Shown: piece after piece, positions 20,570 to 22,022 of the stretch
Position numbering within the stretch: the stretch's first letter is position 1
Layout: every line of letters starts with the position of its first letter
Assembly (NCBI GenBank): GCA_944389925.1
Contig: CALXOD010000015.1
Span: 1-33,719, forward strand
Direction of reading: 5' to 3'
Length of the DNA: 33,719 bases
From: an uncultured Victivallaceae bacterium
GTDB lineage: Bacteria; Verrucomicrobiota; Lentisphaeria; Victivallales; Victivallaceae
Notes under the pieces: model-generated
Database searches by the model: none
Told to the model about the DNA's origin: nothing
Seen by the model: only the letters and a program-made list of their open reading frames with translations
Translations under genes and position numbers: made by a program

Positions 20570-21547
20570 TCATCCGGAAACCGAAAGATTGAGCTTTTCC
20601 ACCGATACCCCCAGGCCCTCCGTCAACATCTGCCCCAGCTCCCGTGCCAGCTGTTCCGCGCGACTGCGGGGCACCTCCAGATAGCATTCGATAAAGTCCC
20701 CGATATCCGGCAGCGACAGATACACCGGTAATCGGGCATGTGGATCCCCTCCCACCTCCCGAAAGTACCGCAGTGCCGTCATCCGGCAGCACTCCAGATG
20801 ACGCCCCAGCGCAAACAGCCGCGGCGCAAGCACCATCTCCGTCACCGGGGACACCAGGTTTTCGCCCGCCGCATAACGGTTCAGAAAACAGAACAACCGG
20901 ACACTCGGCAGAATTCTGCTCACTCCATGCAGCCGGATTACCCCGGACCGTACCAACTGCCGGGTAGCCGGCTCCAGCCCTGCTGCAATCTCCTCCGCGG
21001 AAACCGAATAAAATTCATCCAGATGTCCGCCCCCCACCGGCAGAGTGGGCACCACGGAAAGCGGTGCCGATGCTTCATAATGCCGCGCCAGCTCCACCAT
21101 CAATCCAGGCGCCGACGCCTCAATCCGCAATGTCCGCAATGCCTCCACTACCTTCCCGGCAAGAAAATCCAGATGCGCATCGGATCCGGCCATATATTTT
21201 CTCAGTACCGTTGCCACCGTGGCATTGTCGCCGCGACATTCCACCGACAACACTCCGGGCGCGCCCCGGCGAAACAGAGCAGCAACATCCGCCAGCCCGG
21301 TGTCTTCAAGAATCCGAATCACCGCCGAATCCAGTTCGCTCCTGGCAAAAACCTTTCCCGTCCGACCGCAATGTTCAAAGGCGTATTCCACCGCCAGCGC
21401 AATGTCTTCGGCAAGATAGCAATTCTCCTGCAATCCCGCCCCGAGAAAGCAGCGGATCAGCGTATTCTGGAGCTCCACAGGATCAAAATTCCGACGCTCT
21501 CCGTCCACTTCCAGCAGTACAATCGGATGATCCGGCGTCTTAATCAT
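20570..21547 (-). CDS. ATP-cone-like domain protein of unknown function beside nrdR
   Basis: A 325-residue protein I cannot assign to a known family. Residues about 8-93 read like an ATP-cone: VDGERRNFDPVELQNTLIRC, then AEDIALAVEYAF, then FARSELDSAVIRILEDTGL and ADVAALFRR. This mirrors the order in NrdR and ribonucleotide reductases (F-D-x-x-K-x-x-x-A-I, a helical pair, an I-x-x-x-V-x-x-x-L stretch, then an A-x-x-Y-R end). The usual 'V-x-K-R-D-G' reads LLEVDGE here, so the basic residues that contact the nucleotide are missing. The remaining 230 residues contain no RNR glycyl-radical or cysteine signature; some helices and the ending FIECYLEVPRSRAEQL look compact and cytosolic. It follows nrdR by 28 nt and starts at an ATG with AGGA 9 nt upstream. 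A role in dNTP-related regulation is inference from these two facts. Confidence 0.7.
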   Translation of the reverse strand: MIKTPDHPIVLLEVDGERRNFDPVELQNTLIRCFLGAGLQENCYLAEDIALAVEYAFEHCGRTGKVFARSELDSAVIRILEDTGLADVAALFRRGAPGVLSVECRGDNATVATVLRKYMAGSDAHLDFLAGKVVEALRTLRIEASAPGLMVELARHYEASAPLSVVPTLPVGGGHLDEFYSVSAEEIAAGLEPATRQLVRSGVIRLHGVSRILPSVRLFCFLNRYAAGENLVSPVTEMVLAPRLFALGRHLECCRMTALRYFREVGGDPHARLPVYLSLPDIGDFIECYLEVPRSRAEQLARELGQMLTEGLGVSVEKLNLSVSG

Positions 21548-21575
21548 ACTTCCCGTTCCTGTCTACATTCATGGT

Positions 21576-22022
21576 TCAACGCAGAGAGCGAATTTCTTCA
21601 ATAAATTCGTCCACGTCCTTGAATTTTCGATAGACCGAGGCAAAACGCACATACGCCACCTGATCCAACGCCCGCAATGCGTTCATAGTCCGGGCACCGA
21701 TTTCAGCGCTGGACACCTCCTTGTCGAAATCCCGCTGGATGGTCAGCACCAGATCCTCCACCAGTCGATCGATATCTTCCGGATTAATCGGTCGTTTGTA
21801 ACAGGCGTTCTGGATGCCGCGCCGCAATTTATCCTGGTCAAAATCCTCGCGAACGGAATTACGTTTGACCACTTTCAGGCCTTCGCGGATAATACTCTCA
21901 TAAGTAGTGAACCGGTGAGCGCATTTCAGGCATTCCCGACGCCTCCGAACCCCGGTATCATCCTTCACCGCCCGGGAATCAATCACCTTGTCTTCCAGAC
22001 AACCGCATTGAGGACAACGCAT
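21576..22022 (-). CDS. nrdR: Transcriptional repressor NrdR
   Basis: Represses ribonucleotide-reductase genes in response to dATP/ATP binding. The ATG at 22022 gives 148 residues, the family's normal size; the longer frame upstream has no support. The start MRCPQCGCLEDKVIDSR and the RRRRECLKCAHRFTTYE element form the Cys4 zinc ribbon. The ATP-cone follows with VVKRNSVREDFDQDKLRRGI, and ends VAYVRFASVYRKFKD. All canonical residues are present, unlike in the next gene. No ribonucleotide-reductase gene is in the window, so its targets must lie elsewhere. It starts 16 nt after the lipoprotein gene, with a GGAG in the gap. Confidence 0.98.
   Translation of the reverse strand: MRCPQCGCLEDKVIDSRAVKDDTGVRRRRECLKCAHRFTTYESIIREGLKVVKRNSVREDFDQDKLRRGIQNACYKRPINPEDIDRLVEDLVLTIQRDFDKEVSSAEIGARTMNALRALDQVAYVRFASVYRKFKDVDEFIEEIRSLR

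Follow-up and report, generated by a model that had tools for sequence, protein, structure and literature searches.

ATP-cones, the master switch in the making of DNA precursors, have mostly been described within ribonucleotide reductases (RNRs) or within NrdR, which itself controls this synthesis. They have reportedly also been moved to NrdB, a precedent for a cone placed away from the catalytic subunit. NrdR oligomers form by contacts among its ATP-cones, and in the S. coelicolor protein the inner nucleotide is contacted by K50, R51 and E56, the outer by K62 (PMC9110341). Here we describe a protein of 325 residues encoded beside nrdR in a window of 33,719 nucleotides, the whole stretch of DNA that was analysed, from an uncultured Victivallaceae bacterium of the class Lentisphaeria. 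The protein is previously undescribed, and the literature that we covered, which was partial, yielded nothing on stand-alone ATP-cones or on ATP-cones in Lentisphaeria.

Features of the nrdR locus and of the 325-residue protein, in window coordinates
Feature	Coordinates	Strand	Basis
Gene of the 325-residue protein (free-standing degenerate ATP-cone)	20570..21547	-	ORF; coding 20573-21547, stop at 20570
ATP-cone fold (beta-hairpin and four helices), residues 8-95	21263..21526	-	AF2 model, PDB matches, PF03477 in relatives
E13-V14 codons, at the positions of the NrdR K50-R51 pair	21506..21511	-	Alignment and homologue counts
Putative degenerate second ATP-cone, without beta-hairpin, residues ~100-165	21053..21250	-	hhalign against two-cone class III RNRs
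Linker and conserved C-terminal region, residues 166-325	20573..21052	-	Without significant match
nrdR (zinc ribbon and ATP-cone)	21576..22022	-	TIGR00244 175.9 bits, PF03477 80.4 bits, PF22811 69 bits
Predicted lipoprotein, 348 aa	22039..23085	-	ORF; 16 nt upstream of nrdR

At the locus, nrdR lies upstream of the 325-residue gene and is separated from it by 28 nt (21548-21575), in agreement with the spacing given in the sequence-only reading. Because the two gaps measure 16 and 28 nt, the lipoprotein gene, nrdR and the 325-residue gene appear to form a single transcription unit, likely with the lipoprotein gene first. The predicted lipoprotein has no match in a Pfam search; a similar-looking, Cys-containing lipoprotein-like ORF is also found upstream of nrdR at three other loci (L175-L177). 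NrdR boxes were found at up to three mismatches neither in the window nor at nrdJ. Upstream of nrdJ in the same genome (L058:100-180), the palindrome-like stretches gcaatatacagtattgc and taccatatatagtac, whose centres are about 31 bp apart, resemble an NrdR box pair, yet have more than three mismatches to the consensus.

Residues 9-94 of the protein fit the ATP-cone pattern of NrdR (VVKRNSVREDFDQDKL in NrdR versus VLLEVDGERRNFDPVEL here). By itself, the window protein gives no match to PF03477 in a Pfam search; 17 of 29 of its relatives match this profile (best E value 4e-6), and in whole-genome scans relatives exceed its curated cut-off of 25.8 bits (G171, 42.9 bits; G093, 35.5; G263, 34.6; G025, 31.9), with the top score having an E value of 2e-10 in its own genome. 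Profile-profile comparisons of this first cone return E values of 9e-10 against one-cone NrdD and 6e-6 against the neighbouring NrdRs, at alignment depths that differ. The AF2 model of residues 1-100 (pLDDT 77, pTM 0.68) displays the hairpin and four helices, and nearly everything that it resembles in the PDB is an ATP-cone, the best Foldseek matches being those from NrdR and from class I and class III reductases (E values 0.003 and above, probability 1.00). Structural alignment of the same model with VIA-align gave Z 12.1 for NrdR 9a6n_B (87 aligned residues, 3.2 A), Z 11.5 for the class III RNR 9d3x_A (98 aligned, 3.5 A) and Z 11.0 for the class I RNR 5im3_B (92 aligned, 3.1 A); the full-length model, built from three near-identical sequences, is unreliable (pLDDT 36). 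Judged across the protein family, the N-terminal ~95 residues are an ATP-cone. The initial proposal of a free-standing ATP-cone-like protein, which a lack of any ATP-cone profile match would have overturned, is thus borne out by PF03477 in the relatives, by the profile-profile comparison and by the fold obtained when the protein is modelled alone.

The protein differs from each of the described cone-bearing systems. It shares with the PF03477 domain the beta-hairpin and four helices, the DG turn, the F/D after the hairpin and the helix pattern; however, it is free-standing, lacks the conserved K50, R51, E56 and K62, and has a degraded second cone and a region of 160 residues after the cone. 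With NrdR (TIGR00244), the product of the adjacent gene in most lineages, it has the ATP-cone fold in common, whereas the zinc ribbon, and hence any known DNA-binding part, is absent and the nucleotide contacts are lost. The cone starts the protein directly, and neither TIGR00244 nor any other NCBIfam or Pfam family matches it. The two-cone class III NrdDs (the 915-residue L102 and its relatives) share the succession of cone 1 and cone 2, but the 325-residue protein is devoid of the NrdD barrel, the glycyl radical domain and the hairpin of cone 2; Pfam and NCBIfam searches detect no RNR catalytic barrel (PF02867, PF13597) in it. The model of residues 1-100 also matches 5olk (Z 10.3), the ATP-cone-bearing NrdB of Leeuwenhoekiella blandensis. 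In both proteins the cone is located away from the catalytic subunit; there, however, it controls activity as a fusion to the radical subunit, whereas here it is free-standing and without the contacts.

The four nucleotide-contacting residues of S. coelicolor NrdR, K50, R51, E56 and K62, align with E13, V14, R19 and E25 of the 325-residue protein. The NrdR of the window retains the equivalents of all four, and K50 and K62 are invariant in 37 neighbouring NrdRs. Among 78 homologues of the 325-residue protein, the K50 position is occupied by D/E in 40 and by K/R in 6, the R51 position by K/R in 2, and no homologue (0/78) has K/R at both, which confirms the replacement of the K-R pair first noticed in the window protein. 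When the cone positions are ranked by variability across the 78 homologues, these four lie at the 69th-94th percentile, and conservation within the cone is chiefly that of the hydrophobic core. The plain reading of these alignments is that the cone fold is retained and that canonical nucleotide sensing has probably been lost.

Two-cone class III reductases of ~900-970 residues are found in some genomes of the class (L102, L119-L138); genomes of family f9 (G111, G180) instead have, at a comparable length of 967-982 residues, a PF02867-type reductase. It had been stated that the other 230 residues of the protein match no RNR signature, and this holds for residues 166-325 but not for residues ~100-165, which match cone 2 of the two-cone NrdDs in hhalign (E value 7.4e-7; 1.6e-7 for the far subset), with none of 147 column shuffles reaching the far-subset score. 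No profile-profile match is obtained between this region and one-cone NrdD. Residues 1-100 match cone 1 of the two-cone NrdDs with an E value of 1.5e-6, and the 325-residue family aligns with the N-terminal half of these enzymes over 304 columns (E value 4.5e-10); the iterated family profile was built without L102, which is an NrdD. Residues 166-325, for which profile comparisons give no significant match, show a weak colinearity with the first part of the NrdD barrel (E values 0.04-0.29), the score being reached by 0 of 150 shuffles for the far subset, 7 of 150 for the whole family and 40 of 150 for the near subset; this is no more than suggestive of homology between the C-terminal region and the barrel. 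Together, the second-cone match, which is short and weak, and the colinearity lead us to favour descent of the protein from a two-cone RNR as its probable origin.

Within the family to which the window belongs, 72 of 78 genomes carry a homologue, including all 36 of high quality. Across 388 genomes of the phylum, homologues are confined to the class Lentisphaeria, save for one weak match in G347 (E value 9.5e-5, in a 647-aa frame). With the iterated profile, nearly every genome examined in the class yields a homologue; in ten that were first missed, profile searching finds it at the nrdR locus. The family is near-universal in Lentisphaeria. In two genomes of family f4 that are 80-88% complete (G385, G388), NrdR and the homologue both go undetected and an NrdD-length cone protein is present.

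We propose, with a probability of roughly 45%, that the 325-residue protein is an RNR-derived regulatory module, free-standing and nucleotide-blind, which would work by protein contact in the control of dNTP supply. Its source would be the regulatory N terminus of a two-cone class III, NrdD-like RNR, and its parts would be a complete nucleotide-blind cone (residues 8-95), a further degraded cone (~100-165) and the conserved C-terminal region (166-325). The protein itself would be unresponsive to ATP and dATP and would make protein-protein contacts through the cone surface and the C-terminal region. In most lineages it may be expressed together with nrdR, and it may have a role in dNTP supply or in the coupling of dNTP supply to replication, the candidate partners being the ribonucleotide reductase of the cell or a replication protein. 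A related version, which we regard as somewhat unlikely, would make it a class-wide double-cone regulator, the severed regulatory half of an RNR, that acts independently of NrdR and controls NrdJ/NrdD or dNTP-replication coupling by contact.

The reductases of the carrier genomes bear on whether the protein is instead a trans-acting activity subunit, that is, a separated cone region that would dock onto an RNR, the cone-less class II NrdJ included. In the genome of the window, a single RNR was found, a class II NrdJ of 764 residues without a cone, and NrdR is the sole protein scoring as an ATP-cone; G117, which lacks NrdR, likewise combines a class II NrdJ with the absence of any cone-bearing RNR. 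Both genomes would suit docking in trans, as would the resemblance of the family to the regulatory half of an RNR and the precedent of ATP-cones transferred to NrdB. Other carriers have NrdJ only, NrdD only or both, so the protein is not tied to one reductase class; this variation, which would be odd for a subunit dedicated to a single RNR, also weighs against our own proposal. Against docking in trans, the protein is equally conserved where the only detected RNRs are NrdDs with cones of their own, its cone is without effector contacts, and an RNR gene adjoins it at none of the loci examined. We consider an activity subunit a reasonable rival, but an unlikely one.

The surroundings of the gene concern a further alternative, raised in the sequence-only reading, by which the degenerate cone would enter NrdR oligomers as a partner or decoy and alter their DNA binding. 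In 65 of 130 genomes the 325-residue gene immediately follows the 3' end of nrdR in the same orientation, and in 11 of the 130 one gene of ~1.9 kb (a ClC-type channel by sequence) separates the two; neighbour clustering reveals no conserved neighbour besides nrdR across the class. The linkage to nrdR is thus conserved across the class in the 130 genomes surveyed, contrary to what would be seen if homologues never neighboured nrdR. This gene order is in keeping with a partner or decoy, as is the oligomerisation of NrdR cones (PMC9110341), given that a nucleotide-blind cone could poison or tune the oligomers. Against it, eight genomes carry the 325-residue protein without a TIGR00244 NrdR (G117, G105, G263, G359, G394, G348, G016, G370), of which G117 is 95% and G105 96% complete. 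Five to six of the eight keep the gene in the same syntenic place (genus g35, family f3 and perhaps f17). In genus g35 the channel and the 325-residue gene keep their order although nrdR is missing; in G105 and G117 the gene sits between ymdB-like and cysS-like genes, the corresponding place in G171 being cysS-nrdR-325-residue gene; and in G370 it comes after a ymdB-like gene (ymdB-like and cysS-like genes are named from sequence). The genomes are mostly incomplete assemblies of many contigs, and single absences of NrdR could be gaps; overall, gaps are unlikely because three g35 and two f3 genomes agree, with synteny retained. In addition, G117, G359 and G394 have no other protein matching PF03477, genera g14 and g18 have NrdR but carry the gene unlinked from it, and cone 1 appears nearer to the cones of RNRs than to those of NrdR. 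Since the 325-residue protein survives where NrdR has been lost, NrdR is not its sole essential partner. Acting as an NrdR decoy cannot be its only role, and the eight NrdR-less carriers, three of them devoid of any other ATP-cone, speak against such a function as the main and obligatory one; a partner or decoy that enters NrdR oligomers is, in our view, distinctly doubtful. At six loci (L066, L173, L174, L067, L068, L093), nrdR is missing with the 325-residue gene in place, an apparent selective loss of nrdR.

The idea of a new dNTP sensor also fares poorly: a pocket reshaped for another ligand, such as a nucleotide monophosphate, a dinucleotide or a cofactor, would accord with the retained fold, with the F at the F58-type pocket-lining position in 54 of the 78 homologues and with the frequently acidic K50 position, which could reflect a new specificity, but the contact positions vary more than most others in the cone and no new conserved pocket residue is seen, making this reading improbable. 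A phage or plasmid origin is rejected, no relatives having been found in the viral contigs and plasmids searched; a pseudogene is rejected by intact ORFs throughout the class, and a chance resemblance to the ATP-cone by profile, fold and conservation. Weak single matches to DUF7712, an integron integrase (Pfam/NCBIfam) and PDE8A were taken as chance.

A class-wide cone protein without nucleotide-sensing residues suggests that a cone can be purely a protein-contact module. Under the preferred reading, that of an RNR-derived module working by contact, the 325-residue gene would be a definite place to seek hidden dNTP control in a little-studied group, and its survival after NrdR loss makes the question directly testable. 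In keeping with a role in coupling to replication, the homologue is situated upstream of dnaN-recF-like genes (named from sequence) on the same strand in four g14 genomes (L159-L162); at L097 it faces a convergent dUTPase-like gene.
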